This document shows positions 7,612 through 63,401 of a DNA stretch of 64,000 nt, piece after piece. Positions within the stretch are counted from its first letter, which is position 1. Each line of letters starts with the position of its first letter. The translations under genes were made by a program, and so were the position numbers. Under the pieces are notes generated by a model. That model saw only the letters and a list, made by a program, of their open reading frames with translations. It made no database searches and had not been told where the DNA came from. Origin of the DNA: Paramacrobiotus metropolitanus (lineage: Eukaryota > Tardigrada > Eutardigrada > Parachela > Macrobiotidae). The DNA is taken from NCBI RefSeq assembly GCF_019649055.1, contig NW_026570221.1:1736001-1800000 (forward strand). The letters run 5' to 3'.

Positions 7612-7637
7612 GATTGCCACGTAGCTTTCTATGAAAA

Positions 7638-43599: not shown

Positions 43600-43719
43600 A
43601 TGAACCAAAAGACTTTACGAGCAAAAGGTCAATACTCCACGATTCTCACCGCAGGCAACCATCTTGAATAAGTAGCTGTCTGGCTTTGCCATTCTGACTT
43701 TACAACACAATCCAACACA

Positions 43720-45310
43720 TGAAGATTGGAGACACAAAGGTCACCGAAGATGAACTTGCTGAGCTTGGATTGGATGACCTTTCACTGAACGACAAGACTG
43801 TAGGTGATGACCTTTGGCAACTCCAATGGTCTCAGATGAATCAAATGAATCATATTTCACGGATGATGAAACGACGATGAATATGTCTTTCCAATCCGCG
43901 ATGAGACAAGCCGACCGTGCTGAAGGGATGACACCTTTCAAGGAAATACCCGAGCATCTCATTGAACGGACAAAAACAGGAAAGGTCATTAATGTGCGAC
44001 CACCGTCACCGAACAGTCCCACGTCAACTTTGAGGAGACGTGTCAGTGAATTGGAAAACGAACTTGAAGATAACGAACGTCAGGCGGACAAGCGGAAACA
44101 GGAATATCGAGAAAGACTGACGGCACTTGAGACCCGCCTGTTCGATCTGGAGCAGCAACAGGGTGACCTTCAAAGTGCCGCAGATGGTTGGAAAGTGAAA
44201 TACGAAAGGCAGAAGGAATTCGCTGACAAGTATCTGAAAATGGCAGATGACAGAGAAATGGAAGGTCACCTCGCAGTCAATGACCTTAATGAGAGTATGT
44301 CGGAAGAATCAGCTGAAAGGTCACGGCACCCAGCCGAATTGAAAGACGAGTGTGACTTACTGAAACAAAAGGTCACTGAAGCTGAAGCAAAAAGAGACGA
44401 TTATGCGACCAAACTCGCCGAAGCTACCCAGCGACTGTTAACAAACACTATTGAAGTGCTCAAGCTCAGGAATGATCTGAAGCTTCGAGATGAGAGTATC
44501 GGAACCCTCCAGAAGGAATCACAAGATCATCAGAGAAGAGCTGACGATGCCGTCAGGGTGGCTAAAGACTTGCGAGACCTTACAGCCACCGAAGGCGCAC
44601 GGTTGAGCAATGAAATAAGACAGATCATGGAAGAGAATAAGGTGTTGAAAGAAAAGATCGAGAAGGTCACCGAAGACAATACCGAGTTGAAAGGAGCCGC
44701 TAAGACAATTGCCGAACAAGGGTTAAGCTGGGAGCGAGAAGCACTCCGCTTAGACGTGTTGGTCACGGCACTCGAACGGAAAGATAAAGAATGGCAACAG
44801 ACAGTACACCAGAAGACACAGGAGATCATCAGACTCAATACGGAGCTGATCGACATGACCCAAACGGTAATGACAGGAGAAGATGAGGTCACCCAGACAA
44901 AAAACCAGCTGAAAGCAGCAGCTGAGGAATATACAAAATTGGAAAGAGAAGTGACCCAGTTGGCGGAACACATCAAAAAGGCAGAGAACAATACGGAGAA
45001 GATGATCTAGGAGAAGACCTTTCAACTTCACCAGCACATGCTAAAGGTCAGCCAAGAGAATCAGAATTTAAAAGTTGAGAAAGAGCAATCTGAGCTGAAA
45101 ATCAGACGTCTCGAAGACGAGAATAAAGCGCTCAATATGTCGAATAAGCACAAAGATGAACAGCTCCTGCAATACGGAGTCAAAACGGCAACGTTGGAAT
45201 CGCCCCCGCCCAGTTACAGTAAGGCACAGGAAACGGGCACGGGCAAAAGCTTCCATTTCGAAATGCCGCTACGAACAGGTACCGGCAAAGGAAGCGTTAA
45301 AACGGAGTAA
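43720..45310 (+). CDS. Coiled-coil ORF at the 5' end of the retroelement
   Basis: ATG 43720 begins MKIGDTKVTEDELAELGLDD. The frame shifts near 43805 into a long open stretch (43814-45010) that is almost entirely heptad-repeat coiled coil from about residue 75, rich in Glu, Lys, Gln and Arg. A single in-frame TAG at 45008-45010 interrupts it, and coiled coil resumes to 45310. No enzymatic motif is present. A structural pre-Gag or a Gag N-terminal oligomerisation region is plausible by position. Many of its KVT, EGH and ERS tripeptides are translations of the AGGTCA motif. Confidence 0.65.
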
Positions 45311-46364
45311 CGGCGAAAAGGTTAATGAGGACAAAGAGCAGCTGTCGGAAGGTTACCCGGATATGAGTCGAGGCGATCCTTCCCAGTTTCCCCCGCATAT
45401 TGAAACGAACGTATTCATTGACGAAGGGCGACGAGACAGACCCTCTAGCCGGCAAGAGCGTCCAAGGAAATCCCGCTATGCAAAGGCGAAGCGAAACCTA
45501 AACGATGATGAAAGCAGCGAAGAAGAAGAGGATCCGAGAGGGGGTTTCGCATTAGCAAAAGCACTTAACTCCATGGCACGGAAAACACCTCTCATGACCT
45601 TTGACGGCAGTCGTGATACCGTGAATGGTTGGACAGGACTGGTAAAAGACACCCAAAAAACGTACCAACTCACCGATAACCAGATTATGATCGAGATAGC
45701 CAGCGCGGTGAAAGGCCCTGCTAAAACCTGGTTCGAAAGCGAAAAGGACGTCGCATCAGAGGACGGAATCGAATATACGGTTACAGAATGGATGGATAAA
45801 TTCAAAGATGAATATGGCGACCGAGACGAAGAAGTCTTAGGCTTACGTGAGGCCTATGCAAGAAAATTCGAACTCGGAAAAGAATCGCTTGACCAGTATT
45901 ATCAGGCGATGATGCGGTTCAAAGCAAAAAGGATCATCACGGAAAAACAAGCGGTGGGCTTCTTAATCGAAGGATACAGAGGGGACAATGAACTCTACAA
46001 AGCCCTGCGTACACAAAAGTGCAGAACGCCAACCGACGTAAAGGACTTTTTCCGACATTGGGCAACGGGAGAAGAAAAGTACAAGGCGCCAAAAGGTCAA
46101 CGTAATCAGGAATACGTGACCATCCGCCAAGGCCAAGTTGAAAATGTACCACAACAAAGGATGGCAGCTGCACCAGTCCAACAGCCGGTGGGATACCGCG
46201 TGGAAACTCCGGTCAGAGAGGTCACCAAGGAAATGACCTTTATCGACAGCCAGACGGGACAGCCGATAACGTACGCAATGGTAGCGGCAATACAAGCAGC
46301 GGCTCAAGTGAGACCAATACCCCAACAGGTGATCCCACCGGTACCACAGAATGTGGCCCCTTGA
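45297..46364 (+). CDS. Gag capsid domain
   Basis: The frame in use starts somewhere around 45297, overlapping the preceding frame. After an acidic/basic linker (RNLNDDESSEEEEDPRGG) comes a retrotransposon Gag fold: LMTFDGSRDTVNGWTGLV, IASAVKGPAKTWFES, WMDKFKDEYGDRDEEV and ESLDQYYQAMMRFKAKR. This is the pattern of the Retrotrans_gag family, which forms the particle capsid. The C-terminal part is Pro/Gln-rich. It ends at TGA 46362-46364; the nucleocapsid frame (one base back) begins exactly there, so expression would need a shift at GGCCCCTTG. Confidence 0.85.
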   Translation, partial: LKRSNGEKVNEDKEQLSEGYPDMSRGDPSQFPPHIETNVFIDEGRRDRPSSRQERPRKSRYAKAKRNLNDDESSEEEEDPRGGFALAKALNSMARKTPLMTFDGSRDTVNGWTGLVKDTQKTYQLTDNQIMIEIASAVKGPAKTWFESEKDVASEDGIEYTVTEWMDKFKDEYGDRDEEVLGLREAYARKFELGKESLDQYYQAMMRFKAKRIITEKQAVGFLIEGYRGDNELYKALRTQKCRTPTDVKDFFRHWATGEEKYKAPKGQRNQEYVTIRQGQVENVPQQRMAAAPVQQPVGYRVETPVREVTKEMTFIDSQTGQPITYAMVAAIQAAAQVRPIPQQVIPPVPQNVAP

Positions 46365-47089
46365 ATGTTGGGGTACCACAACAAGGAGTGGGCAACGGAA
46401 ATTTCGGTGGAAACGGATACGGAAACGGAAACTGGAATGGAGGTCAAGGAAACTTCCAGAATCAAGTTCAAGGTCAAGGCTACTTCCAGCCGAACAGAGG
46501 AAACCAGAACAATTATCAGCAGCAACAAGGGTCACGGACAGAATTCAAGTTTCAATTGATTGACGGATGGGTGGCAAACGGAGTGCAGATGTGTCAGCAC
46601 TGCATGTACGGAAACCACCAGACGCAAGGGTGCAAATTCGCCAACAAACCACCAGAACAGAATCCGAACCTCTTTGCCTTCAGAGAATGGCAACGGCTTC
46701 GCGCCACGGGCGGCTGGCGTCAAGCGGTGGCAAACGGATACGACTTGATTACACAATGGTACCAGGCGAAGGCGAACTTCCAGAATCAGCAGGGAAATAG
46801 AAATGGTAATTACGGGAATGGAAATAGTGGTGGCCAGAATAACGGTGGCTACGGCCGTGGCGGATACCGCGGCGGCTTCAGAGGAAGTGGCAGAGGCTTC
46901 GGCCGCGGAAACAACCCAGGCGGCGGAAATGGAGGTGGCCAAGGAAACTACCAACAGGGTGGTGGCCAATACGATAACGCCGGAGGACAGAACCCTAACC
47001 CGGCAGACGATATCGGACAACAACAAGGAAATGTGCAGGGCGCGCAACAAGGTGGTGCGCCGGTTCAGGGAAACGGGCAAGATCAGTAG
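46361..47089 (+). CDS. Nucleocapsid-like protein with CCHC knuckle, Gly/Asn/Gln-rich
   Basis: It has no ATG of its own at the start, so it probably continues Gag. It contains CQHCMYGNHQTQGC, a C-x2-C-x4-H-x4-C zinc knuckle of the retroviral nucleocapsid type, flanked by Asn/Gly/Gln-rich and RGG-rich low-complexity stretches (GRGGYRGGFRG). Such regions bind and condense RNA. It ends at TAG 47087-47089; a different frame (open before 47092 and to 47892) continues the polyprotein. Confidence 0.8.
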   Translation: MNVGVPQQGVGNGNFGGNGYGNGNWNGGQGNFQNQVQGQGYFQPNRGNQNNYQQQQGSRTEFKFQLIDGWVANGVQMCQHCMYGNHQTQGCKFANKPPEQNPNLFAFREWQRLRATGGWRQAVANGYDLITQWYQAKANFQNQQGNRNGNYGNGNSGGQNNGGYGRGGYRGGFRGSGRGFGRGNNPGGGNGGGQGNYQQGGGQYDNAGGQNPNPADDIGQQQGNVQGAQQGGAPVQGNGQDQ

Positions 47090-47091
47090 GC

Positions 47092-47892
47092 GCCGGTGAG
47101 CCTACTGATCGCCCCGACCCTAAACCACCGGATAAAGGGGGAACGGAAAGGTCACCACTGCAGAATGGCACTGCAGTGAACGTGACCACTGCGACGGCTA
47201 TAGGGATGCCGTCAGTGCACAACGAAGGTGGACCGGCCATATGGATGCCGCAACCACAGGAAACGGCTATATGGATGCCGTCACAGCAAAGAAAAACGGC
47301 TATATCGATGCCGTCGACTCAAAAAGAATGTGAAACGGCTATATGGATGCCGTCACAGCAGCAAAAGGAACTGGTTATCGAGAAACCAGCACAAGCGGAC
47401 AAAAGGTCACCGCAGAATGGTACTGCGAGTGGAAACGCGCAACGGGACCAAAGGTCACCGCAGAATGGTACTGCGAGTGGAAATTGTCGTGACGGTAGCG
47501 CGACACTGCAAAAAGTGCAGCCAAGTGAAAGGTCACCGTATTGCAGCGAGGAAGTGTTAGCGCAACGATGCGCACAACGAAACGCGAAGATTCAACAGGC
47601 GCTGCTGAATCAAAGGTCATCACCGCAGAATGATACTGCGAGTGGAAATTGTCAACAAACAAAATGTAATTGCGAACCAGAAGAAGTGGACGATGAGCAA
47701 CATGCGAAATTCCGAAAATACTTGGCAGAAAATAACAAAACGAATAACCAAAGGTCACAACCCCAGAAAGAAGTCGTGAAAGGACAGCAACCGGACATAG
47801 AGCCACGTTGCAACTGTCGCGTAATGGAGACAGGATATACGGAAACGGAGATCCGACCAAGATTTGCAGTTGCTTGGAAGATAAAGACTTAA
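47092..47892 (+). CDS. Linker region with hairpin-forming coding repeats
   Basis: The frame is open from before 47092 to TAA 47890-47892. It encodes repeats (AIWMPSQQ type, five; RSPQNGTASGN type, three to four) that arise from two nucleotide repeat families. Cysteines occur in the C-terminal part (CNCEP, CNCRV). No domain is recognised. It links nucleocapsid and protease. Its frame is shifted relative to both neighbours. Confidence 0.55.
   Translation, partial: AGEPTDRPDPKPPDKGGTERSPLQNGTAVNVTTATAIGMPSVHNEGGPAIWMPQPQETAIWMPSQQRKTAISMPSTQKECETAIWMPSQQQKELVIEKPAQADKRSPQNGTASGNAQRDQRSPQNGTASGNCRDGSATLQKVQPSERSPYCSEEVLAQRCAQRNAKIQQALLNQRSSPQNDTASGNCQQTKCNCEPEEVDDEQHAKFRKYLAENNKTNNQRSQPQKEVVKGQQPDIEPRCNCRVMETGYTETEIRPRFAVAWKIKT
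47194..47355 (+). repeat. Five hairpin repeats, ACGGC...GCCGT
   Basis: Units at 47194, 47233, 47263, 47296 and 47335, consensus ACGGCTATATGGATGCCGT, separated by 9-20 bp. Each has 5-bp complementary arms (ACGGC, GCCGT). Confidence 0.85.
47402..47655 (+). repeat. AGGTCACC-hairpin composite repeats
   Basis: Units at 47402, 47450 and 47612 (and a variant at 47150) couple AAAGGTCACC to CGCAGAATGGTACTGCG, a stem with arms CGCAG and CTGCG, followed by AGTGGAAA. Confidence 0.8.
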
Positions 47893-48206
47893 AGCAGGAT
47901 GCCACAACGGGCAGTAAAGATGAAAGGTCACCTTCCGTGGGAAAGGTCTACGTGAATGGTCATGGAGCGAGTGCGAACGCTAAAGGTCACCGGGACAGCG
48001 TCGTGATAAAAGGTCAAGAAACAGACTTGACACTGCGAACAGCGCAGCAAAAGAATAGCAAACCGGCACAACAGAATTCCGACGATTCACTTGTAGATGC
48101 AATAACGCTGCAACGGAAGGAAATCTGGCGAAAAGTGGCCTACAGACCTAACGGGAATCACGGGATGTGAATACCCGTAACGCCAAAAGCGAAACAGAAA
48201 GCGGGA
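47893..48206 (+). CDS. Linker, in frame with the protease region
   Basis: The frame open from 47808 reads through KDERSPSVGKVYVNGHG and NAKGHRDSVVIKGQ to a single TGA at 48168-48170. It then continues in the same frame into the protease ORF. No domain. It shows the motif translated in two frames (ERS, KGH) within a few codons. Confidence 0.5.
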
Positions 48207-49559
48207 ATGTCACAAGAAGGTTACTGGGACATGCAAGAATTGCGAACACAACATGAGAGGAAAAGATTAGAAGAGTTGGTTACCGGGAAACCAACGAAAG
48301 GGTCACCGAACCCTGTCCCAGTATTCAACGTAGAAGAATATAAGAAGACATTCGCCGACGCGAATTACCCGCGAAATGCACCACCAAAAGATAAACCGTT
48401 AAACTATGGAGAAAAAGTTCCCATACAAAAGTTGTCAAGCGGCGGATTTGTCATAAAGCGCAACGAAAGGTCACAGGACTTAGCGCAAAAGGAACAAAAA
48501 GGACGGTCAAAAAAGATGGCGCAAACACAACAGAGTAGCGCAATTGAAAGGTCACGGGACTTATCACAGGCACCGCAAAAGGATGTCAACGACAAGTCAC
48601 CAGCCCGAACTGATGGAATGTCTTCGCAAATTGATCCGACGAAAACGAACAAGGAAGTGTCAGCAAAGGTGATCGACTGGATGACTCAAAAGGGATACAA
48701 TATAGTTACATATGAAAGGTCTCCAGACGAGATGAAAGATAGTGAAGCAGATGAACTGAAGAGAGCTGACCAGATAACAAGTGAAGTCATCGAGAAGTTG
48801 CGAGATAAAAGGAAAGATGAAAAGAAAGAAGCGCTGTATCAGACGATAATTGAAGTGACTAAAGGTCATATGACCAGCACAAAAGCAAACGAGCAAGTGC
48901 AGAATGCTGAAAAGGTCACCAGTGGTAAAATTGCTGCAGAGAAGCAAACAGATAAGAAAAAGCCGCAGAAATTTTACGATGTCCGAACTGACGTGCCACA
49001 CAGGATTGATAAGTTGAGCGAAATACTGAAAGGTCATAGCACTCCAGCAAAAGGACAAGTGCTTCCCGACACGGATCCTGGACCAGTATCGCTCATCCCT
49101 GTGAAATGTAAGATTCACACCCTGAAGATTCAAAACGGAAAATTGCCCAAGAGAATTGAAGCGTACACTCACGAAGTGAAAGTGGGAGACATAAAGGTCA
49201 ATGCAATGCTAGACACCGGCGCGGAGACGTCGCTGATCAGCAAACCGTTTTGTGAAAAGAATGGACTGCATATGCTCCCATTGCCACCAGACAGACTGGT
49301 GAAGATAAATGGAATTAGCGAAACGTCAGGATTCCTGGTGACGCACTACTGTGTAGCACCAGTGACCTTAAGGAAAAAGACTAGTGAGCATTCATTCTAC
49401 GTCCGACGGAAGTGTGACGACGTACAGGTGTTACTCGGATTTGACTTCCTGGAAAAGAAATTCGTACTGATGGATAACGAAGGCGAAGAAGAGAAAGAAG
49501 ATTACCCGAAACCAGTTGCTAAAGTACAAGTCGGAAAGGTCACCGAACTTGTAAAATAG
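48207..49559 (+). CDS. Retroelement aspartic protease with long N-terminal linker
   Basis: 450 codons. The first 310 are a charged, low-complexity linker dotted with ERS and KGH/KVT triplets. The C-terminal part holds the protease: VNAMLDTGAETSLIS (catalytic Asp-Thr-Gly) and VLLGFDFL (the hydrophobic-Gly motif preceding the C-terminal strand). Retropepsins mature Gag and Pol. The frame closes at TAG 49557-49559, and the same frame resumes immediately. Confidence 0.85.
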   Translation: MSQEGYWDMQELRTQHERKRLEELVTGKPTKGSPNPVPVFNVEEYKKTFADANYPRNAPPKDKPLNYGEKVPIQKLSSGGFVIKRNERSQDLAQKEQKGRSKKMAQTQQSSAIERSRDLSQAPQKDVNDKSPARTDGMSSQIDPTKTNKEVSAKVIDWMTQKGYNIVTYERSPDEMKDSEADELKRADQITSEVIEKLRDKRKDEKKEALYQTIIEVTKGHMTSTKANEQVQNAEKVTSGKIAAEKQTDKKKPQKFYDVRTDVPHRIDKLSEILKGHSTPAKGQVLPDTDPGPVSLIPVKCKIHTLKIQNGKLPKRIEAYTHEVKVGDIKVNAMLDTGAETSLISKPFCEKNGLHMLPLPPDRLVKINGISETSGFLVTHYCVAPVTLRKKTSEHSFYVRRKCDDVQVLLGFDFLEKKFVLMDNEGEEEKEDYPKPVAKVQVGKVTELVK

Positions 49560-50714
49560 ACGGGAAATGCTCAAACGGATAATAAAACGCTAATCCCAGT
49601 ACCAGAGGCACCGGGAAAAGAAAAGAAAAAGCTGGAGCAAAAAGAACTGTCGACATTCGAGCAGTTGAAAGTGATCCAGCAGGAAATTTAAAACACATTG
49701 AATCGGTCAATGCTGACACACAAGGGAAGAGAAAACGTCATCCCAGTACCAGAGGCACCGGGAATGACACAACAGAAAGAGTTGAAAGTGCATCAAGAAG
49801 AAATTGTCCCAGTACCAGAGGCACTGGAAACGAAAAATGAAAATGGAAATGTTGAAAAAGTTATCCCAGTACCAGAGGCACTGGGAACGAAAGATGAAAA
49901 GTCACCGGCGATACGAGTTGAGAACTTGGCACCAGAGCCGGATCCGAAAAACGTCAGCAAGACCTTTTCCGAACCACGATCTGCTACCCAAAATGAAAGG
50001 TCACCAGATAAAACTAAAGAAGAAGCAACAGAACGTGACTCTCATAAGGAACCCTTTTTCGAACCACACTCTGCTATCAATGACGAAAGGTCACCAACGC
50101 TTGAAGAGATAGCTGTCACACAGAAGGAAGCGACAGCTGCAGCGAAACAATCGCTCGTGCCTGGCACGGAGTGGGCAAAGCCGATCCCAGTACCGGAGGC
50201 CCTGGGAATAAAGACGGCTAAAGTGTGGAAGGATAAAAAGAGTGAAAGGTTAAGGGTACTGAAACGAATAGCCGAAGAGGAACAGATGTTTACAAGTGAA
50301 ATCCGCAACAAGGCGCTTGAGCAGTTAAAAAGCCACAGAACAGAAAAAGAACCGGAGGTCATCGGAATATCCTCTGAGGACAAAAGCGCGACTCCACAAG
50401 ATGCCACAGCACAGGAAGATGTTAACCCGCAAACAAGTCAAAGGACATTAACTCCAGAAGAACGAGCCGGGAGTTGTCACCACGGTTACTATGAGGATCC
50501 ATGCAGAGTACAGCCTCAATGGGAATGTGCTGAATATCGCGAGAATGCCTCTCAAGATGACCTTTCAGAGTGGCCCAGATGTAATGCCGCACTAGCAGAC
50601 CTAAAAGGTCAAGCTCAAAAGGAAGTAAAAAGCATCATGCGGACAAACGAAATGTGGAACCGCACATTGAACGGTATCACTGGAACAGATATCGGGCATG
50701 GTTATCAGGCATAA
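49560..50714 (+). CDS. Repeat-rich linker (PVPEA and FFEP repeats)
   Basis: In frame with the protease after TAG 49557, and interrupted once more by TAA 49689-49691. It encodes five IPVPEALG-type repeats, two EPRSA/EPHSA repeats and several NERSP triplets, with a mixed-charge composition and probable disorder. The frame ends at TAA 50712-50714, and a new frame (50654 on) carries the chain to RT. No domain is recognised. Confidence 0.5.
49594..50207 (+). repeat. Hairpin repeats CCCAGT-N9-ACTGGG, five copies
   Basis: Copies at 49595, 49742, 49808, 49866 and 50186 (partial sixth at 51469). The sequence TCCCAGTACCAGAGGCAC is nearly invariant, and the 3' arm varies (CCGGG, CTGGG). The best copy (49866) has perfect 6-bp arms. 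Confidence 0.85.
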
Positions 50715-51814
50715 AGAACTTCATAATGGGGAGAGGGAAATGGCTAGACCATTGGCAACAACGCGCGGATAACGAAATCCAAGATCCTTTTGACCCAGTA
50801 TCAACGAAACGGAAACTTGAGAGAAAGACAGAAGAAATGAATGAAGAAGTACAGTTGTGGGAAGAAGCAAGAATTGAATTATTTTGGGACTTCCGCGTTA
50901 ACCATATGTATAAAGGTCAAGTTAGAACGGTTATATTCCCAACAGGATTCGGGACATCAGTATACGAGTCAGTGGAAGTGTTCTGCAAAGCACTAAAAGA
51001 AGATGATTGGGACGTATTCGACAAATATTGGAAGAAATTCGAAGCAGAGATTCCTATATTTGATGTAAAGGAGATGAGAGAATTACAAGTAACCCGGAAA
51101 AAAAGGTTACCGGGGTTAATGCAAAAGAAAAAGGTAACCTTTGCACCAGATCCAGACGGTGTAGACTACCCAGGACGAAGTGGCGATACGTGGTGCATGT
51201 ACGAAACGATTCCAAGCGATGATTGGGTTACTGAAGAGCTGATGGCAAATTGTGTCTTCGTCGGTCCGAAACGACCTAAAGGTTACGAAACGGTTCAAAA
51301 AGAAACAGAGGAGGAAGAAACACAAAAGGAAACGGTTGAAGGCGGATCGAAGGAAACGGAAGAATCACGTACATCAGCTTTTAACATAGCACAAATGTCA
51401 ACAGACAGAGGAGAAATGTGGAGAAAATTTAAAGAGGAAGTGGAAAGGATATCGAATGAACAGCAAAACCCAGTACCTGAGGCAAAACCTGACGAAAGGT
51501 CATCCGAGAAAAATGAAGGGACTAAAAGGTCATTGTTGAGCCTCGAAGAAATTGACGAGTTGGAAGAGGCAAATCGTAACACAGAAAGGTCAAACTCAGA
51601 TTTGACAGAAAGGTCATTGACGAGAATACGGATAGCAAGGAGCCACCCGAGAATCGCCGCACGAAATGGAAAAAGGACAAAAGAAACGGGCAAACCTCTG
51701 CTCAAAAACCCGAAAGTGAAAAAACTTAGCGATTCGCGGGAAAATGAAAGTGACCTTTCATCCGAGGACAAAGGAGTTGATGAACGCCCACTCGAAAAGA
51801 CTGATAAAGGTTAA
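50654..51814 (+). CDS. Pol N-terminal region before RT, unknown
   Basis: 386 codons, partly structured (residues about 20-130, with aromatic-rich IKNFIMGRGKWLDHWQQR and WDVFDKYWKKF) and then charged and disordered with ERS triplets. It ends at TAA 51812-51814, after which the same frame continues into RT, so it is probably the pre-RT part of Pol. No family is recognised. Confidence 0.5.
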   Translation: MEPHIERYHWNRYRAWLSGIKNFIMGRGKWLDHWQQRADNEIQDPFDPVSTKRKLERKTEEMNEEVQLWEEARIELFWDFRVNHMYKGQVRTVIFPTGFGTSVYESVEVFCKALKEDDWDVFDKYWKKFEAEIPIFDVKEMRELQVTRKKRLPGLMQKKKVTFAPDPDGVDYPGRSGDTWCMYETIPSDDWVTEELMANCVFVGPKRPKGYETVQKETEEEETQKETVEGGSKETEESRTSAFNIAQMSTDRGEMWRKFKEEVERISNEQQNPVPEAKPDERSSEKNEGTKRSLLSLEEIDELEEANRNTERSNSDLTERSLTRIRIARSHPRIAARNGKRTKETGKPLLKNPKVKKLSDSRENESDLSSEDKGVDERPLEKTDKG

Positions 51815-53560: not shown

Positions 53561-55472
53561 ATGGGAATGTTTAGCAGTAGTATTTGCTGTCAGAAAATTC
53601 AAGCCGTTTATCGATTATTCGGATTTCACTGTAAGAACGGATCATCAAGCGCTGACCAACTTACTAAAGTCAGAGACGAATAAAGTCGGAATGAATCCGC
53701 GTTTGACGAGATGGGCAATGGCACTGCAAGGTCATCAGTTTAAAATCGAATACAAACCGGGAAAATATAGCGACAGCGCGGACGCATTATCAAGAGCGCC
53801 AATTGAAGGCCCAACGTGTCAAGAGGAAGAATTTGATGAGATCCCAAACTTCGAGAATTATAAGAAAGAATTCGACACGAAAGAACCGGCAATTGAAATT
53901 GGACAGCTGTTCCTGCAGATGGTGGAACAGAGAGCAAAACGCTTAAAGGTCACTTCAGCTACGGCGAATGAGTCGGCTGAAAACGAAGTAAAAGTGAACC
54001 GAGTAAAAAGCTGGTTGCCCACCGTGAGTGACTTAAAGGTCACCGGGCTTGAAGACAAATCTAAAGCTCAAGATGGAAAGGTCACGAGACTTGTTGAAAC
54101 AACGGAGAATACAGATGACCTTTGGGAAGCGGACAAAGTGGCACAGGCGTTGAACGAGTGTCCGATAAAGCTACTGAGATTCCCGAAACAGATGAAGAAG
54201 GGGTACAAACCACTACCACGCTGTAAGATCATCAAGGACTGGAACGTGCTCAGCACGGCAACAGTTCGTATCGTTAACCTGCAAGGTGATGAGGAGGAAG
54301 AAGATGACTTGAACTTGCAATTGCGGAACAAACAGTTAAAAGATCCCCACCTGGCAATGATAATAGATGAACTGGAACATCTACCAGATTCTGAAACGAG
54401 ATCGAAATTTGAAGTTCATTACCAGTTGTGGAATGGCATACTGTACCGAGTAAAGGATAAAAATGGGAAACTTGAAAGGTCATATGTGGTACCGTTGTCA
54501 ATGCGAAGAGCGATAATCCACGCATTGCACGACGAGAAAGCGGCAGGCCATTTGGGATTCGAAAAGACACTATCAGCGATAAGACTCCGTTATTATTGGG
54601 ATCGAATGAGTACAGATGTAAAGAATTACATACTTGCCTGCCAAGGATGTCAGTTCCGCAAAACGCCAAGGAAATGTCCACCAGGAAAATTGCAAGAAAT
54701 CAAAGTGGGACATCCGTTCTTCCGAGTTTGCGCGGATCTGAAGGAACCGTTGTTACCAACGAAGAAACGAGGATACAAGTACATAGCGGTATTCATCGAT
54801 CAGCTGACGAAAAACGTGATTGCGGTACCAATGAAGACGGCAACGGCTAAAGAGTTTGCAAAAGTGTTCGTAAAGCATGTAATATTGGTACACGGAGCAC
54901 CGCACATCCTACACACGGATCGTGGACGGCATTTTACAGCTGAAGTGTTGACAAAGGTCACCAACGTGTTCAAGATTAAACACACGTTTGGAACGGCGTA
55001 TCATCCAGAAGGTCAAGGCCAAGTTGAAAGACAGATGCAGACGATTGCGGATGGCCTGGCTCAGTATCTGAAAGCGGGAAATGAAAGGAAGCTTAACAAG
55101 TACCTTCCATATGTTATTTCGGCGATGAACAGAGTTGTACACGCCACAACTGGTTACTCGGCATATTACATGCTACACAGCAAAGAAATGACAATGCCGG
55201 AAGATGTGGTCACAAAAACGAATATCCCAGACGACTATGGCACTCCCGATGAGTGGGTGGAGACCATGAAAAAGAATCTGACCTTTGCAGAAGAAGTGGC
55301 GAGGTGCAATATCAAAGATGCATACGAGAATAATGCGGAAATCTACAACAAGAGGAAATCGGAGCCTAACTTTAAAGTGGGCGACCTTGTATTGATACGT
55401 TTACCTAAAGACACGAAACAAGGGAAGAAAGAAAACCAATCGGACTTTAAGTCGAAATACGATAAAGTATAG
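53550..55472 (+). CDS. RNase H C-terminal part and integrase
   Basis: RNase H continues with GVTEWECLAVVFAV (Glu) and FTVRTDHQAL (Asp). After a linker with several KVT triplets comes integrase. The zinc domain (HALHDEKAAGHLG, ACQGCQFRK) has H-H-C-C spacing. The rve core has Asp in RVCADLKEP, Asp in ILHTDRGRHF and Glu in GQGQVERQMQT. A C-terminal domain follows (FKVGDLVLIRLPKD). All three integrase acidic residues and the RNase H residues are present. The frame closes at a single TAG 55470-55472 and continues in the same frame beyond. Confidence 0.92.
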   Translation, partial: GVTEWECLAVVFAVRKFKPFIDYSDFTVRTDHQALTNLLKSETNKVGMNPRLTRWAMALQGHQFKIEYKPGKYSDSADALSRAPIEGPTCQEEEFDEIPNFENYKKEFDTKEPAIEIGQLFLQMVEQRAKRLKVTSATANESAENEVKVNRVKSWLPTVSDLKVTGLEDKSKAQDGKVTRLVETTENTDDLWEADKVAQALNECPIKLLRFPKQMKKGYKPLPRCKIIKDWNVLSTATVRIVNLQGDEEEEDDLNLQLRNKQLKDPHLAMIIDELEHLPDSETRSKFEVHYQLWNGILYRVKDKNGKLERSYVVPLSMRRAIIHALHDEKAAGHLGFEKTLSAIRLRYYWDRMSTDVKNYILACQGCQFRKTPRKCPPGKLQEIKVGHPFFRVCADLKEPLLPTKKRGYKYIAVFIDQLTKNVIAVPMKTATAKEFAKVFVKHVILVHGAPHILHTDRGRHFTAEVLTKVTNVFKIKHTFGTAYHPEGQGQVERQMQTIADGLAQYLKAGNERKLNKYLPYVISAMNRVVHATTGYSAYYMLHSKEMTMPEDVVTKTNIPDDYGTPDEWVETMKKNLTFAEEVARCNIKDAYENNAEIYNKRKSEPNFKVGDLVLIRLPKDTKQGKKENQSDFKSKYDKV

Positions 55473-56359
55473 AAGATCCTCAGTTACCCACGAACAAATG
55501 AAGCAGAGGTCATTGAACAGAATCCAAAGAAAAAGGCGGATTTGAAGGTATTTTCGATTGACCGCTTGAAACCATGGCATCCGCCATTACCGGTCGAGGA
55601 AACAGCGAAGCAAGTACCAGAGCGTACTTCAAATTTTTTCGAACAACCTCTACTACCTGAAATGGAAATAGCGGATGAGGGCGCAGAGCGCACTTCTCAA
55701 AAAGATCCCTTTTTCGAACCCCCTCTGCTACCCGAAATGGAAAAAGTGGATGATAACGAAGCGGAAGAAGCTGAGCATGATCCGAAAAATGGACCAAGTC
55801 AATTTTTCGAACCACGCATTCTGCTACCTGATACGAAAAACGGAGACAAACCAAAAAAGAAAAGAGGAAGAAAAAGGAAAGAAGATAAAGATTTTGAAAC
55901 AGCCGTTACAGCAAAGTTGAACGCAGAAGCTGGGAATTTGACAGAAAGGTCACCAGCGAGGGAACCGATAATGAAGTAGCAGGACGCGCTTCACAAAAAG
56001 ATTTTGAACTGAACCAAAAACCTTTTTTCGAACCACGCACTGCTACCGGGGACAAGGATGACCTTTCGAAACAGCGAACTGGCGCTGAGATATCAGAGCG
56101 CGATTCGAATTTTTTCGAACCACGCACTGCCGGCAATGAGAATGACCTCATAAAAAAGAGAAAAGAGGAAATAGAGGCAGTCAAATCAAAAGCTGAACAA
56201 CTGGGCCGTGACATAGCGAAAGCAATCGATGACCGAAAGGTTAAACAGAAGAAAAAGAAACTAACTCCTACTGAATTGCTGACCCAGAAAGGTGAAGTTG
56301 AAGATGCGGCCAACAAAGAACTCCTTGATCAGATAACTAAAGGACGCAAAAACAAATAA
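55473..56359 (+). CDS. Pol C-terminal tail with FFEP repeats
   Basis: The same frame as integrase resumes after TAG 55470 (KILSYPRTNEAEVIEQ, VFSIDRLKPWHPP) to 55979. A frame change near 55966 continues as KDFELNQKPFFEPRTATGDK to TAA 56357-56359. It is acidic and lysine-rich, with five FFE(P/Q) repeats and a basic KKKRGRKRK stretch that could be a nuclear localisation signal. No folded domain is recognised. Confidence 0.6.
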
Positions 56360-56579
56360 CCCACATAAATACGAAGAAGGGGTTCACTTCACTAAAAATA
56401 GGAGTTGGGAAGGTGTAAAAAGGTCATCACCGTTATAAAGCTAACCAATACCGTTTCATTGTTACAGAAGGTAAGCGCAGTTAATGGACAGATTGGAACG
56501 ACAAAATTCAGATAATTCTGACTCGGAAAGTATTGGAAATGCGTTAAAGACATCGACCCCAAAAAGAATGGAAGGTTAA
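56360..56579. other. Short gap without coding signal
   Basis: About 220 bp between pol and the next ORF, with one AAAGGTCA copy. It could contain a subgenomic promoter or splice acceptor (TTGTTACAG at about 56459). Not testable by eye. Confidence 0.35.
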
Positions 56580-56942
56580 TACGGGTACGACACCTCATAT
56601 GGTGAGGGGTCGACGTCGTCGGTAGGAACGGCACAGAACGAACCTGGAACAGTCGAAGGAGGCGCTTATGGTGGCCCAGGGTATTATGTGTATCATGATC
56701 CGGGACAGCCGACGAATTACCAAGATACGGTTAATTGGGTGCACCACGGCTCAACTGCCGGAACCCAGTATACAGAACAACCGATGCACAATGCCCCTTA
56801 TCAGCCGTACCCAGGAGTATATACCCCACCGATGGGACCATCGCAGGTGATGATGGGACCGGAAAGAATGTTGATGCCGCCACCGCAACAGACTACACCG
56901 AGTAGATTTATGGGACATGGGGCGGATTTAGTGGAATGTTAG
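56580..56942 (+). CDS. Tyr/Pro/Gly-rich ORF
   Basis: The frame is open from TAA 56577 to TAG 56940-56942. Composition is Gly/Tyr/Pro-rich (GGPGYYVYHDPGQPTNYQ, YQPYPGVYTPPMGP), low complexity. It merges by one-base shift into the 659-aa ORF starting at 56936, so it is probably that protein's N-terminus. Confidence 0.5.
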   Translation, partial: YGYDTSYGEGSTSSVGTAQNEPGTVEGGAYGGPGYYVYHDPGQPTNYQDTVNWVHHGSTAGTQYTEQPMHNAPYQPYPGVYTPPMGPSQVMMGPERMLMPPPQQTTPSRFMGHGADLVEC

Positions 56943-58915
56943 CGACTCCGGTGCAGTCACAAAGGTCATCTCCGATACTGCCACCCTTTCCAGAAACGGG
57001 AGGTCTGTCACTGTCGGACATTGGAACACCTCGTTTGAGAACACCGCAGCAAATGGGAGCGCAACGACCTCACCGGAACTCGCCACAAAAAGGAAAGAGG
57101 CGAGGAGGAAATCGGTTTGATTCACCACGACCGCGAGGCATATTGCCGTCGTTGGGCCCAAACTTGGAGCAGGTCGGACCAGATGGTCTACGGGCAACGC
57201 CCCCGGGTGAACCAATCGTGCACGAGTACTCACCGAAACTTCCGCTGGATATGAGAGAAGATGATGCGCGATTGAACGTGATTGTGAGCAACGGAGAAAG
57301 ATTGACAGCGGCTGATACAGAGGCCATCCAGGATTTCAACCGAATGTGTCGGGATCTTTATAGAATTCACATGCAAGTTGAGGATGATCACGCATTTTAT
57401 GGAAGATTAATCAGTTTGGACGCGATCATTGAAGCAGCTCACATCGCGATGAAGGAAAAAACTAAAATCATTGAAGTTCAACGTAAAGAGTTAGCGATCA
57501 GAATCGCCTCGATGAAACAATACCATCCGGCTTTAACCAACCGAAAATGGCCGCCGATGATTGAGAAGATACAGGGATTCCTTAAGACGATTCCTAAAGA
57601 AAGGAGACCTTCGACAAGCAGCGTGGCGGGGCCGTCACGGGCATTAGTTGAAGCACCAGTTGATGAGATGTCGGACAGTGCCCTCCTGGAAACAAAGAGA
57701 AAAATTGATGCAGAATTAACTGACCGTGCAGAAAGGTCACGGGCCAGTTCAACCGCAGGATCAGCACGCGGACGTACCAGTTCGGTTACAGAGCCGTCTA
57801 GCGGGACCGTAAAAAGTGGAAAAAGAGTAAGGTCACCGACGATAAGTCCAAAAGAACATGACAAGAAAGGGCAGCGGACCAAAAAGGTCACAACAAGTAA
57901 AGCACCGCCGGCTAAGCCACAAGCCCCGATCCCGGTGGGTAGAAAGAGTGTTCCACCCACGCCACCTACAACGGAAGACCAGATTCGATTTCCGAAATGC
58001 AGGACTTTCACAGTCAAATATACCGGGACAGACCATAATGAACGAAAGGTCACGGCTCGGATAGTTGATAAAAGAACGAATAAGGAGATTGACTCATACA
58101 ATCCTCTTGCAGATAAGTCAGTCAAAACTGAGATTGGGGAAAGGTCAAAGACAGAAGTCAACGAGGCGTTACAATTCATTCCCCCGGAAGAGCGTCATAA
58201 TCCGAGAGTCCTTATTCAGATGATGAAACACGTGGTGTCGAAAATAGCGAATGAAGAGGACGCATTGATCCGAATTAAAGTGGGCACGAATGACGACCAC
58301 TTGGCATACACACACACAGCGGATGGAAAGTTGTTCACGAAAGAAAGAATCCGGCCAAAACCGACAGCGGACCCAGATCCGGCTAAACGAACATTAGATG
58401 ATTACGAGTCGACCCTGAAATATACTGAAGGAACATGCAGGAAGGTGACGCTGAAACTCCATTTTGGCGATGGAGCAATGGACGGCATAACCGCAGTAAT
58501 CGTCGACCCGGTAACAGGAGATCCGATTCCATACGCCCCATGGGATGTGTCAGAAGAGAGCGCCGAACATGCTAACCAGACAGCCCTCGACCAGCTGTGG
58601 GACCTGATACCAAAAAGTGAACATCAAGATCCGATAGTCCAATCGAACACACTGATCAGCATGATGCGGCATCGAGCGGAGATAGATAAAGCTCATTTCC
58701 GACTCACAAGAAGAATGGAAAACGGATCGTATAAAACGGTATTCTACGACGCGAAACTGAACCCTCTGTGGGAGATTGTGAGACAGGGACAGACAAAAGA
58801 AACACCTCACTTGGAAATTCAGGGCAAACACCCGGCACAAGAAAGTGGAGCCGGAGAGATGGCAGAGGCCTCCGTAGCCGAAGTGGCAGGAACGGGGAGT
58901 ACCAGGCGACCATAA
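56936..58915 (+). CDS. Unknown 659-aa protein with internally duplicated domain
   Basis: The longest undisturbed frame after pol. Residues 1-90 are Pro/Arg-rich. Residues about 95-220 are helical (ADTEAIQDFNRMCRDLYRIH). A disordered Ser/Arg/Lys stretch follows. Two diverged copies of one domain of about 125 residues then lie at about 355-475 and 495-620: VTARIVDKRTNKEIDSYNP aligns with ITAVIVDPVTGDPIPYAP, and ALQFIPPEERHNPRVLIQMM aligns with ALDQLWDLIPKSEHQDP followed by LISMMRH. No family is recognised. It is not envelope-like: no signal peptide or membrane segment. It ends at TAA 58913, but the same frame continues. Confidence 0.65.
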   Translation: MLATPVQSQRSSPILPPFPETGGLSLSDIGTPRLRTPQQMGAQRPHRNSPQKGKRRGGNRFDSPRPRGILPSLGPNLEQVGPDGLRATPPGEPIVHEYSPKLPLDMREDDARLNVIVSNGERLTAADTEAIQDFNRMCRDLYRIHMQVEDDHAFYGRLISLDAIIEAAHIAMKEKTKIIEVQRKELAIRIASMKQYHPALTNRKWPPMIEKIQGFLKTIPKERRPSTSSVAGPSRALVEAPVDEMSDSALLETKRKIDAELTDRAERSRASSTAGSARGRTSSVTEPSSGTVKSGKRVRSPTISPKEHDKKGQRTKKVTTSKAPPAKPQAPIPVGRKSVPPTPPTTEDQIRFPKCRTFTVKYTGTDHNERKVTARIVDKRTNKEIDSYNPLADKSVKTEIGERSKTEVNEALQFIPPEERHNPRVLIQMMKHVVSKIANEEDALIRIKVGTNDDHLAYTHTADGKLFTKERIRPKPTADPDPAKRTLDDYESTLKYTEGTCRKVTLKLHFGDGAMDGITAVIVDPVTGDPIPYAPWDVSEESAEHANQTALDQLWDLIPKSEHQDPIVQSNTLISMMRHRAEIDKAHFRLTRRMENGSYKTVFYDAKLNPLWEIVRQGQTKETPHLEIQGKHPAQESGAGEMAEASVAEVAGTGSTRRP

Positions 58916-59602
58916 AAACAGGACGATTCGGAAGAGGAGGAAGCTGACGACGATTCGGCAGAAGAATCGGTCGATGAAGATGAAGAGGACGAGATAGCCG
59001 AGGAAGATAACCAGCCTCCAAAAGTGGCCGTTAAGCCGAAAAAAGCAGATAAATTGGAAGAAGCTATGAAACGGGGCAAGACTAAGAAAAGCGGCAAAAA
59101 AGAATCAAAAGATGATGATAAAAAGAAGAAGAAGGGCGATGAAAAAGAAGCTAAGGGTCACGGAAGGAAGACGGGAGAGAGAAAGAAAAAGGACAAGCCG
59201 TCCTCTCCCGATGTCGAAATTCTTGATGAAACAGTTGGCGAAGTTGAAGCAAGGTCATCGACACCTACAACTTCGAAGAAATTCGTAATCGAATCGGCAA
59301 CCTCCAAGGCCAAGACTGATGAACCGCCGACAACTAAAGGAAAGGTCATAGCGGTGAAGCAGATTGTTCCGGTCGTCATCTCGGCATCCACTCCGAAAGA
59401 GCGTAGAGAGAAAGGAAAGCGTGAAAAAGCAAAACGAGAGACGTCACGAGAATCAGAAGCGTCAGAAGTGAGCTTACCGAGTACTTCAACGGTTAGCACA
59501 AGGTCACAACCAGACCCGAAAACGGCCAGACCGAGAAGCCTAGCAGGGGCTATGGACAAAAAGAAAAAAGCAAAGAGCGAACCCGCTAAGTCGGAAAAGT
59601 AA
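58916..59602 (+). CDS. Acidic then Lys-rich continuation ORF
   Basis: In frame with the 659-aa ORF after TAA 58913-58915. It begins KQDDSEEEEADDDSAEE and turns into Lys-rich repeats (KKSGKKESKDDDKKKKK), then Ser/Thr/Lys-rich disorder with PSSPDVEILDET (a SUMO-interaction-like core). It ends at TAA 59600-59602, and the same frame leads into the next ORF 12 bp later. Confidence 0.5.
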   Translation, partial: KQDDSEEEEADDDSAEESVDEDEEDEIAEEDNQPPKVAVKPKKADKLEEAMKRGKTKKSGKKESKDDDKKKKKGDEKEAKGHGRKTGERKKKDKPSSPDVEILDETVGEVEARSSTPTTSKKFVIESATSKAKTDEPPTTKGKVIAVKQIVPVVISASTPKERREKGKREKAKRETSRESEASEVSLPSTSTVSTRSQPDPKTARPRSLAGAMDKKKKAKSEPAKSEK

Positions 59603-59614
59603 GGCAAAGCGGCC

Positions 59615-60691
59615 ATGAAAATTGATGCAATGGCGATGGCCAATTACACTGAGCCACAGGGTGACAGCGAACTTGACTTTTCGGGAGTTGAAGACGAATT
59701 TGACGATCCTGACAACGACAATCTGACTACGATCGACGAAATTATCGCTGCGTACAATGGTGCCGAGAAAAACTTTACACGAATAAGAACGACATCGGTG
59801 ACATCTAAATTCAGAGCGGGCCTGAAGACATACTTGAAGAAAGAAATGCGCCGCAGTTACACCAAACAAAAGTTCGACGTGGTTTTGGAATTCGCTCGAA
59901 ATGCGGGAAACTTTATTCAGAAGCATCCTAACTTTGCGTATAAGGCTAAGTTATTCAGACCGGCGAGTTCAGATAAGGCACTGACGACTCCAAACGAAGA
60001 TACCTCAATGCGAGTAGAAAGGGCAATCGCGGGAATGACAAGCCCGTTGGGGTCAACGAGTCACCGGATCAGTCAATACATCAATGCCGTTTGGAACGAC
60101 GGAAAAGGGATGATAAAGGAAATTGACACGGCCACCGAGCGTGTATTGCCGCGGATGATTAGACAGAACATCCTTTCGACAACGAATGCACATAAAGGAC
60201 AGCTGATCAGATATACGAGAGTAGGTCTGATACCGCCGGAAAGACAGGGCCACTGTCATATGTCCGAAAGCCAGGATATGAAAAAGGTCACAGTTCCATT
60301 GACCGGAGACTCGACAACTCCCATACTGAATCAGATCGCACAGCTAAGGGCTGAAGAAGAAGCCGCTCGGGTTAAAGCACAAGCCCCGAGAGTGTCAAAA
60401 ACGAAAGGACCAATGGATGAGGAATCGGAAGAAAGTGACGATGACCCTACGACACAAACGCCTCTTGAACCAGCGACAGAAAAGGATGACCAGTCCAAAG
60501 GCCAAGAGACATCTGGAACTGTGGCAGAAGTTCAAACGAAAGGTCATGAGGCTCCGCAAAAAGGGGAGAAAGAAAAGGTCATGCTCCCAATGGAGAAAGC
60601 GGCAGCGGAAGCAGAAGCAGCAGCAGCCTCCGCGCGTCAGGTGTTTCAGAGATCATTGTTCGTACCATTGAAGGATGCTTTCGAGAAATAG
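59615..60691 (+). CDS. Unknown 358-aa protein
   Basis: ATG 59615. An acidic N-terminus (LDFSGVEDEFDDPDNDN), then a probably folded basic helical region (about residues 40-220: TSKFRAGLKTYLKKEMRRS, HRISQYINAVWNDGKGMIKE), then a disordered tail with KKVTV, TKGHEAP and EKEKVM translations of the motif, ending in an Ala-rich helix. It is in frame with the preceding ORF across TAA 59600. No family is recognised. Confidence 0.55.
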   Translation: MKIDAMAMANYTEPQGDSELDFSGVEDEFDDPDNDNLTTIDEIIAAYNGAEKNFTRIRTTSVTSKFRAGLKTYLKKEMRRSYTKQKFDVVLEFARNAGNFIQKHPNFAYKAKLFRPASSDKALTTPNEDTSMRVERAIAGMTSPLGSTSHRISQYINAVWNDGKGMIKEIDTATERVLPRMIRQNILSTTNAHKGQLIRYTRVGLIPPERQGHCHMSESQDMKKVTVPLTGDSTTPILNQIAQLRAEEEAARVKAQAPRVSKTKGPMDEESEESDDDPTTQTPLEPATEKDDQSKGQETSGTVAEVQTKGHEAPQKGEKEKVMLPMEKAAAEAEAAAASARQVFQRSLFVPLKDAFEK

Positions 60692-61420
60692 CGATCGAAG
60701 TTGGCAGGTGAAGTGGGAGGTCATGAGACTGCCACAGAAAGAGAAAGCGGCTGAACCGAAATCTGCTCAGTCATCACCAGGCTCGTTGGCAAAGTTAAAG
60801 ATTGTTGAGACAGAAGAAGCGGACCCAACGGACTCGGCACTATCCCCCCAGAAAACGGAAAACAGCAGTACGAAGACAAAGGAGGCGACAGATTATACGT
60901 TAGGAGCACCGTTGGATGTGAATAACCGGACATGGAACGAAGTCCAGGCTGCGATTCAGAGTACTAGAGAACACGAAATGCTTGGGATGGAACTAAAAAG
61001 ACAAGTCGCCGAAAACTCGAAAGGAAGATCGTCACTCAGCATGAGCGAGCGAGTCTTGAAACGAGCGTATAAGGAAGGAAAGTTGGGAAGTAAATATAAC
61101 AAGGACAACAAAGTTATTTACTACCTTCCGAAACAGGGCAAGGATCGCACACCCAGACTTAAAATGGAGCTGGAGGCCTGGAAGATAGCCGTCACAGATG
61201 TGGCTTTGGGCGCCATTGGCGGTACCAATGGAGCGTCATGGGGTGACCTTTCAAATTTCATGGCTGTCCATCATGAACTGGGAGAACTGAATATCGAGAA
61301 AGACAAAGAATGAATTACGAATGCCGTTGAAGCCTTGATTGCAGACGAAGCGCTTCATATTAATAAGGATGGACGAGTTGACTTCAAACCGTATAACCCG
61401 CCGGCGAAGGAGTCTGAGTG
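60675..61420 (+). CDS. Unknown protein, about 248 codons with one internal stop
   Basis: The frame 60675-61313 is followed by in-frame TGA 61311 and then 35 more codons (ITNAVEALIADEALHINKDG) to TGA near 61418. A disordered N-terminal half; a folded-looking C-terminal half (RTWNEVQAAIQSTREHEML, SERVLKRAYKEGKLGSKY, VIYYLPKQGK). It overlaps the end of the previous ORF by 17 bp in another frame. No family is recognised. Confidence 0.5.
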
Positions 61421-61772
61421 AATGGGACGAGTATAATATGCAGCGAGTAATGAACCCTGCATATTACAGAAAAAGCATAAAAATAATTAAAAACGAAAGA
61501 GAAAAGCTTTACGGAAAATTGAAAGTGAAAAGGTCAACTCGAGAAGTAGCGACGATAAGACTAACAGAAAAAGGTCACAGTAGTCAGGAAACGCTAATAA
61601 CGTGAGAAAGGTCACCACGTTACAGTGATAGAAAGGGTAGCACGAGCTAGGAAAGTCTCAGCTCAGTAACGGAATAGCCTAAGATAGGCGTAAGGATGAT
61701 AGAAAAGTCGTGTTAACGGATAAGAAGGAAGAGATTATCGTGGAGAAAATTACTATGACGGAGTTGTTTTAA
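61421..61772 (+). other. Weakly coding gap with three motif copies
   Basis: A short frame (to 61605) reads RRRSLSEWDEYNMQRVMNP, KRSTREV and EKGHSS, and may be the tail of the preceding protein in another frame. Three AGGTCA copies lie at about 61531-61612. Sequence from 61620 to 61772 shows no coding signal. Confidence 0.4.
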
Positions 61773-63371
61773 TTGCAGATTCAAAGTGGAGAAATGGCAC
61801 AAAAAGGTCAAGCCATTCCTCAAAGTTCAGGAACGGGATCTGACATTGACAAGTCTACGGGCTATAATCCGAGGTGTCCGGACTGTAAACGGAATAACAT
61901 TATAAAGAGCGGTAAATACCCATGTTGGGCGTGCGCAACAAGACTGGAGAATCCCATGTGGATTGTAACAAGAGAAGCTATTCGGGGCAATATGGAAATT
62001 TTCCGGATATTGATTACTAAGACACACTATCAGAATGTGGGATTGCCGGACAGAATGTTGATTGAAGACCGATATAGACAGGCCATAAAAGATGACGAAC
62101 CTGGCTGGGATGTCACAATGGAACCACCGAAGGATCCCTTAACAGATGACTATCGTCAGCAGTTCAACAGGGACCAAAAGCGCATGCAGCGGCAACAGCT
62201 GGAAGATGAACTCCTTGCGAAAATTGAAGCGGAGAATAAACGGACAAGCGAACAGGCTGCACGAGAAGCGCTGCCCAGTTCGTCGAGTTCAGCCATACCT
62301 ACAGCAAGCATAAATGAAGATGAGGCGCAGCTCACACAACAGGCCCTCATCATCCAGATTGAAACGTTGACGAAGGACCCAGCCGCTATGCCAGATGATG
62401 TGTTTAAAGTATTGCTCCGGGAGAAACGGCGACTTCAGCAGGGATTTGCCCCAGCGCCGTATATCAAGAAGGAGGTTGAAAAGCGTATGGAGGAGCTGCG
62501 TCGATCTCGTCAAAACGAGAGTAACGTCCTGCAGGCACTCAGAGGATTTAGACGAGATGATGGGTTTACACGACCTCGATCGCCTCCGCAAAGAGAAAGG
62601 TCACGCGGACATTCACGCGAAAATGAACGAACTTCCGAACGACGAAACGAAAGGTCACGTGAATACTCTCGTGAAAGGACACGCGATTACCGCAGGGAAA
62701 GGTCACGCGTACGTTTCCCCGACCGAGATTATCGTGGCGGAAGAGGTTGGGTACGCCATGGAAATGAGATAACGGAAACGAGCATCCAACGGAAAATCGA
62801 TACAGCAAAGATTTTGGCAGCGACAAGAGGACGAGAAGAACAACGGCGTACGGAGTCATACCGTACAGAACCTGAAAAGGAAGGTCATCAGGTGCCGTTG
62901 GGAGTTGCGTTTTGTAATCGCAACGTTCGAATGTCCACACCGGAAAGGTCATGGGACAAGAGACGAGAGCGCACGCGGAATCGAACACCAGACCCACATG
63001 ATAAAAGATGGCAAGAGAGAACTGCGTTTTACGCGGGCCTTGAGTGTGGTGCAAGCAAAAGGTCATCGAGCGCAGAACGGGAAGAAACACCTCCGAAGCA
63101 TCAGCGACTGGAATCAACAGTCCACGTGGTGGACCCCATCATGAGTGCCGTTCAAGAGGATGACACGATGGAAGGGGGCAGCTCAGTCGCAGATTCAGTG
63201 TCCCAGGAGAATGTGACCCATCGACGAAACGTAATTCTTGATAGTGACCTTCAACCGGCTACATCGGCAAGTAATGAACCGTCGCAGCCTGAGTCAGAAG
63301 GACGACGCGAACAAGAAGGTCAACGCAAACCGGATGATCGTCGCGAAAGTGATCGGCGAATGACTTCTTGA
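61773..63371 (+). CDS. Unknown 532-aa protein with zinc ribbon and RS-like region
   Basis: The frame is open from the TAA ending at 61772 to TGA at 63369-63371; the first clear ATG is 61794. The N-terminus has a zinc-ribbon pattern CPDCKRNNIIKSGKYPCWAC (C-x2-C-x12-C-x2-C). A structured helical part follows (WIVTREAIRGNMEIFRILI), and then a disordered half with an Arg/Ser/Glu-rich stretch (RERSRGHSREN, RNERSREYSRERTRDY) resembling an RS domain. The RS character is produced largely by in-frame GAAAGGTCA copies. Possible RNA binding; function unknown. Confidence 0.6.
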   Translation: MQIQSGEMAQKGQAIPQSSGTGSDIDKSTGYNPRCPDCKRNNIIKSGKYPCWACATRLENPMWIVTREAIRGNMEIFRILITKTHYQNVGLPDRMLIEDRYRQAIKDDEPGWDVTMEPPKDPLTDDYRQQFNRDQKRMQRQQLEDELLAKIEAENKRTSEQAAREALPSSSSSAIPTASINEDEAQLTQQALIIQIETLTKDPAAMPDDVFKVLLREKRRLQQGFAPAPYIKKEVEKRMEELRRSRQNESNVLQALRGFRRDDGFTRPRSPPQRERSRGHSRENERTSERRNERSREYSRERTRDYRRERSRVRFPDRDYRGGRGWVRHGNEITETSIQRKIDTAKILAATRGREEQRRTESYRTEPEKEGHQVPLGVAFCNRNVRMSTPERSWDKRRERTRNRTPDPHDKRWQERTAFYAGLECGASKRSSSAEREETPPKHQRLESTVHVVDPIMSAVQEDDTMEGGSSVADSVSQENVTHRRNVILDSDLQPATSASNEPSQPESEGRREQEGQRKPDDRRESDRRMTS

Positions 63372-63401
63372 TTCAATAACCGACACCCTGACCTTATCGA
63401 C

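Follow-up and report, generated by a model that had tools for sequence, protein, structure and literature searches.

The window, by which we mean the whole 64,000-nucleotide stretch of Paramacrobiotus metropolitanus DNA that was analysed, holds a decayed copy of a family of giant Ty3/gypsy-type LTR retroelements (Table 1). Pfam domains for protease, reverse transcriptase (RT), RNase H and integrase follow one another in the order that characterises Ty3/gypsy elements, and the gag-like, linker and downstream parts gave no Pfam family above the cut-off. The copy is interrupted by stops and frameshifts, has an LTR at its 3' end only, beyond the window, and shows no homology between 36000 and 43715 to the four leaders fetched from other copies. 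The preliminary description placed the element at 43600..63400; a motif-rich element does lie there, but homology to other copies begins at about 43716 and the element passes the end of the window. Its stretch at 61773-63371 is 74-83% identical in DNA to other copies.

Table 1. Features of the retroelement copy and positions of the repeated word, in window numbering
Feature	Position	Strand	Basis or detail
Element body inside window	43716..63371	+	5' homology limit against other copies, ORFs; continues beyond 64000
Sense AAAGGTCA sites, n=59	43624..63065	+	first start 43624, last start 63058
Antisense AAAGGTCA sites, n=10	43775..61251	-	starts 43775, 43808, 45595, 46234, 50558, 51751, 54116, 55279, 56059, 61244
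Site-dense coding linker, gag-like part to protease	47090..49170	+	14 sense sites, 6.7 per kb
Retroviral-type aspartyl protease domain	49173..49454	+	Pfam PF13975, E 5.3e-08
Reverse transcriptase domain	52685..53158	+	Pfam PF00078, E 1.8e-23
RNase H domain	53541..53729	+	Pfam PF17917, E 1e-15
Integrase zinc-binding and core domains	54489..55007	+	Pfam PF17921, E 2.5e-20; PF00665, E 8.4e-12
Downstream coding part	56906..63371	+	no Pfam family above cut-off; conserved in other copies
3' LTR of window copy	~65729-66074 (outside window)		comparison with other copies

Relatives were sought in the genome (169.8 Mb, 533 contigs), and each of the 90 candidates scored, from 1504 first-look candidates, showed 77-100% identity to the RT protein; open frames in some of them reach 3124 aa. 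When the RT core was written as a degenerate pattern with at most two mismatches allowed, it hit 209 places in the genome, and its reversed control none. The sole copy measured end to end, C70, is 24,613 bp long and is flanked by LTRs and a short target duplication (flanks CCTC), as befits an LTR retroelement; its 360-bp LTRs are 100% identical, and so the copy is young. Directly after the LTR, in the position of a primer-binding site, stands TGGTAGCAGAG, which may match initiator tRNA-Met. Thirty of the 90 scored copies were aligned over 4.4 kb around the RT; in DNA they are 81-84% identical to the window copy, the remaining copies being 80-99% identical to one another.

The repeated word in the window and across the family

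The excess of AGGTCA reported in the preliminary description (about 75 plus-strand and 15-20 minus-strand copies) is borne out by direct counting, which gives 76 and 17 in 43600-63400 and 77 and 23 over the whole window. AGGTCA is the top-ranked 6-mer of the region (76 vs 9.4 expected under an order-2 Markov model), and the repeated unit is the 8-mer AAAGGTCA, which ranks first among 8-mers with 59 plus-strand copies vs 1.58 expected and is accompanied by ten copies of its reverse complement vs 0.19 expected under the same model. Outside the region the window has just two more, at 27811 and 43259, both on the minus strand. In the coding part a G is preferred 5' of the word and a C or T 3' of it. 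The motif had been said to be independent of reading frame, and the 49 of the 59 sense sites that fall within the ORF segments used indeed occupy all three phases (25/17/7); antisense sites occupy two of three, the remaining phase being one that would read TGA, a stop. Spacing of the body sites is irregular (CV 0.97), the closest two starts in the window lying 24 bp apart. In the window copy the nucleocapsid-like, RNase H, RT and integrase parts have a site density of 0-1.9 per kb and the linkers one of up to 6.8 per kb, small counts in both cases, a distribution that is expected if protein constraint limits the positions that the word can take.

Codon-preserving shuffles had been named beforehand as the comparison that could overturn a claim of selection on the nucleotides rather than on the protein. 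Six of the 30 copies have an uninterrupted frame across the 4.4-kb RT stretch, a set that leaves out the broken window copy, and in these 13.0 sense sites were seen vs 1.01 expected and 4.67 antisense sites vs 0.12 expected, far above the shuffle level, and the claim survives. It is supported equally by synonymous positions: degenerate third positions are 0.988 conserved inside the motifs of copy L005 (n=45) vs 0.808 elsewhere (n=1348; p=3e-19), with amino-acid conservation at 0.976 in motifs vs 0.942 elsewhere (p=0.07). At the 19 alignment columns where the motif is the modal 8-mer its mean share is 0.87, vs 0.52 for the modal 8-mer at 4069 other columns. Sixteen of 25 site columns are intact in at least 25 of the 30 copies (12 of 19 sense, 4 of 6 antisense) and five, four sense and one antisense, in all 30. 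Not every site is kept, since six columns are present in only one or two copies and three are intermediate. Motif positions are nevertheless held while their flanks diverge among other copies of the element, as had been anticipated, and this comparative evidence shows the sites to be selected DNA words of the family.

Additional copies for a comparison between clades, four picked for low RT identity and one cluster taken from the motif list, form a second clade (B) with about 68% DNA identity to the first (A) in the aligned part, or 59-62% in the case of L068, whose overlap is partial. Each clade has private sites, and the number per 4.4 kb is 15-19 in clade A and 16-20 in clade B. Ten of the 16 sites of L005 in the shared part are identical in L064 and nine in L067, vs 324 of 4030 (8.0%) for other 8-mers compared between L005 and L064. 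When all sites of L005 are taken together, the 8 bp show an identity of 0.81-0.97 and the flanks one of 0.33-0.80, which points to the 8 bp themselves as the conserved unit. The coding body of the family thus carries about 3.5 copies of AAAGGTCA per kb, on either strand and in every phase that avoids a stop, with places that turn over at constant density, and the number of sites seems to be more important than their place.

Genome-wide, AAAGGTCA occurs 42,562 times on both strands vs 15,522 for its reversed control. As a rough upper estimate the family could account for about 17,800 of these, near 40%, on the assumption of 209 full-length places with about 85 sites each, many copies in fact being partial. 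The word is clustered outside the element too, because a host locus with no detectable similarity to the element pieces compared, itself found twice in the genome, carries five sites in about 310 bp. It exceeds its control outside the element as well, so that some of its abundance may have a separate cause. The two further gypsy-like families sampled (about 35% RT identity) have no sites in 3.0 and 2.5 kb and no comparable word under codon shuffles, TACTGTAC occurring five times in one of them. We therefore rejected a habit common to all retroelements of this host, and against the two families sampled the motif habit looks like a property of the AGGTCA-rich family.

Leader arrays and a candidate host reader

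Arrays of the word were found in all four leaders fetched, with 12, 10 and 17 antisense sites in clade A and eight in clade B, vs 0.04 expected for one leader; three of the four also have one sense site. Spacings are mostly 23-56 bp, with 37 of 43 at most 60 bp and 26 of 43 at either 29-30 or 41-43 bp, and the word is mostly preceded by T and followed by CTTT. Part of the array in the C9 leader is a 29-bp tandem repeat. Leaders of the two clades are just 59-61% alike, and the arrays are kept nonetheless. The 3' regions of C70 and of the window copy each contain five antisense sites and one sense site, and the C70 LTR, the LTR that was measured, contains none.

The earlier identification of AAAGGTCA with the NBRE, the monomer site of NR4A-type receptors, holds, the element word being identical to the sequence given as bound by NR4A1 in the available text of PMC12539977. 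A canonical NR4A DNA-binding domain is likewise encoded by the host. A search for the receptor DNA-binding domain gave 63 exon-wise matches among 90 candidates scored, and two host exons join into one domain that is nearest to NR4A1 and NGFI-B among solved structures. Downstream of this domain, in L046, lies VVRTDSLKGRRGRLPTKPK, which we take to be the NR4A-type C-terminal extension, giving the host a receptor with both a matching domain and, on that assignment, a matching extension. The first base of the word is A rather than C in 69 cases to 4, a preference that presumably fits NR4A better than NR5 or ERR. What differs from an ordinary NBRE is that many copies stand in one element and within its genes, and they are best called candidate sites. 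It is probable, from the match of word and domain, that a nuclear receptor reads them; that NR4A in particular does so, with an effect on the element, is something we infer, and the same word might be readable by other host receptors or by further proteins.

Three further possibilities were set aside. Dimeric receptor sites were rejected, the nearest starts in the window being 24 bp apart; L071 has a single inverted pair at a distance of 15 bp. Helical phasing of the body sites gave a weak value of 0.247 at 10.25 bp (73 non-independent pairs, nine periods tried), which we do not count as evidence. A reader encoded by the element itself was rejected because no DNA-binding Pfam family scored above the cut-off in the ORFs scanned, which were those of at least 150 aa outside the gaps of the broken copy.

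Parallels, alternatives and meaning

Factor-binding arrays in retroelement leaders are already known. To our knowledge, however, no known retroelement keeps dozens of sites for one factor in its coding sequence against synonymous drift, and body-wide selected sites in retroelements were not found by title or abstract in the open-access journal literature searched. What is new is that a single site is carried on through the genes. By analogy, the nearest parallel is the gypsy insulator of Drosophila, in whose 5' untranslated region 340 bp hold 12 Su(Hw) sites according to the available text of PMC2374998: both elements are of Ty3/gypsy type and both have a tight leader array of a single site, here in four leaders, that serves or would serve one DNA-binding protein. 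They differ in site and reader, the array word (T)AAAGGTCA(CTTT) not matching by eye the Su(Hw) consensus YRYTGCATAYYY as quoted in that text, and the present element also has body and 3' sites. Endogenous retroviruses of flies are driven by cell-type factors, for example ZAM by Pointed (PMC12993057, a commentary), and resemble our case in the dependence of a retroelement on a host transcription factor for expression, which here is proposed; their control is placed in LTR and leader-type sequences, and the available part of the commentary mentions no body-wide site set. Bacterial DNA uptake sequences, as presented in the available text of PMC2346458, likewise consist of a short word spread throughout genes in both orientations, one of them commoner in reading frames, but they are a competence signal with no leader array and are functionally unrelated.

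Several explanations other than transcriptional or chromatin control were weighed. Strand bias had been taken in the preliminary description to suggest a role at the RNA level, in which AAAGGUCA in the genomic RNA would be a binding site used in packaging, export or RNP assembly, or would pair with the UGACCUUU array of the leader. Coding sites are mostly sense and the leader array is oppositely oriented, as such pairing would need; yet the sense excess tracks base composition, the A-rich sense strand predicting a bias of about 8:1 under the Markov model where about 6:1 is seen, so that the bias is no evidence for RNA and that suggestion goes unsupported. Antisense sites are moreover the more enriched over the codon shuffle (about 40-fold, sense about 13-fold), are conserved about as well as sense sites, with one coding site retained in every one of the 30 copies, and account for almost the whole of the leader and 3' arrays. 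An RNA signal is accordingly quite unlikely in our estimation, and, because the coding-strand bias follows base composition, the word is most likely read in double-stranded DNA. A double-stranded signal could also act after reverse transcription, with receptors along the 24.6-kb cDNA aiding its entry into the nucleus or the integrase complex, in a way comparable to uptake or targeting sequences. This would suit the even distribution of sites across the body, the leader and the 3' region in both orientations, and also a count that is kept while places change, but by itself it leaves the dense leader array unexplained, and we judge it as improbable as the RNA signal. The leader array is the strength of a further proposal, that arrays occupied by receptor stop enhancers or silencing from acting, or bring copies together in the nucleus, as Su(Hw) does on gypsy: its 8-17 sites resemble those of the fly insulator. 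The site is unlike the quoted consensus and we know of no gypsy counterpart to the body sites, and as a full account this analogy appears rather doubtful. The view that the word is a side effect of protein repeats, biased codon use or recent duplication could draw on the few sites inside duplicated coding units (47389-47648), on some sites read as a repeated ERSP-like peptide and on the tandem repeat in the C9 leader. It is opposed by the codon shuffles, the several phases, the presence on both strands, the synonymous conservation and the independent sites in two clades; protein repeats and codon bias were dropped in view of the shuffles and synonymous conservation, and we consider the whole explanation highly improbable.

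The explanation towards which we lean, by a little, is that this family of 24.6-kb elements keeps nuclear-receptor sites along its whole body for control of expression or chromatin. The word would be recognised in double-stranded DNA, as a monomer site, by a nuclear receptor of the host, NR4A or another reader of the same NBRE being most likely; the leader array would serve LTR-driven transcription in the role of enhancer or insulator, and the body sites would keep the long unit bound, accessible and able to be transcribed despite host silencing. A bolder version, which we put forward tentatively as a possibility, makes the whole 24.6-kb body a distributed platform. A set density of NBREs, on both strands and in the available phases, would then be selected because it lets a single nuclear receptor of the host cover the provirus or its cDNA and thereby hold it open, import it or tie copies to one another, and the family may hold so many of the genome's sites that it competes for or rewires the receptor network.

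The pattern suggests an element wired to a host regulator along its entire length. If the sites are occupied, the family would be a natural test of distributed factor binding on a long transcription unit and of escape from silencing, with built-in controls in its many copies, its two diverged clades and its motif-free sister families, and would show how mobile DNA can supply much of the target set of a receptor.

Sequence at and upstream of the element's 5' edge

The region of the window before the giant Ty3/gypsy-type retroelement carries several features of its own (see table), among them an ORF matching a DNA_pol_B_2-type polymerase, a kind of enzyme known from certain viruses and certain large DNA transposons. 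The two inverted arrays of a telomere-like 9-bp unit are separated by about 2.3 kb and both lie directly upstream of the element. The 73-bp tandem unit at its 5' edge shows no similarity to the fetched leaders, the regions that follow the 5' LTR of other copies.

Features in the window and at other loci of the genome
Feature	Location	Strand	E-value
ORF, DNA_pol_B_2 match	window 12226-13704	-	4.9e-24
Inverted arrays, 9-bp telomere-like unit (AAACCTAAG / TTTCTTAGG)	window 40225-40535 and 42775-42970		
73-bp unit, two tandem copies	window 43454-43598		
Tandem-repeat ORF, ice-binding beta-roll profile PF21300	L074 2647-3198	-	2.4e-13
Other RT families, open frames of 3537-3610 aa	G000:C78:477360, C13:640823, C76:464689		

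Other elements and a profile match

The very long open frames of other RT families are found outside this Ty3/gypsy-type family, and giant retroelements are therefore not confined to it. In the fetched stretch L061, ORFs at 6589-7739 (minus strand) were judged by eye to resemble the integrase and gag of a different gypsy-like element adjoining this one; the final 5.4 kb of L061 contains one site. The tandem-repeat ORF of L074 is open in more than one frame, and its match to the ice-binding profile is probably an effect of the repeats.

Sites outside the element and in an expanded leader array

Outside the element, AAAGGTCA occurs five times inside about 310 bp (L072 275-581; C1:331500-332500), in DNA that shows no similarity to the element pieces compared and that has two genomic occurrences, the second copy being 84% identical. 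These sites may form a regulatory cluster of the host, serving the factor that would also read the element's sites. A further locus outside the element (L073, C1:565000-566500) has AAAGGTCAT in two pairs, inside short repeats. Within the family, the leader array of the C9 copy (L070 1636-1897) has expanded as 29-bp tandem repeats, each unit comprising one site, and such repetition provides a way for the number of sites to change rapidly.
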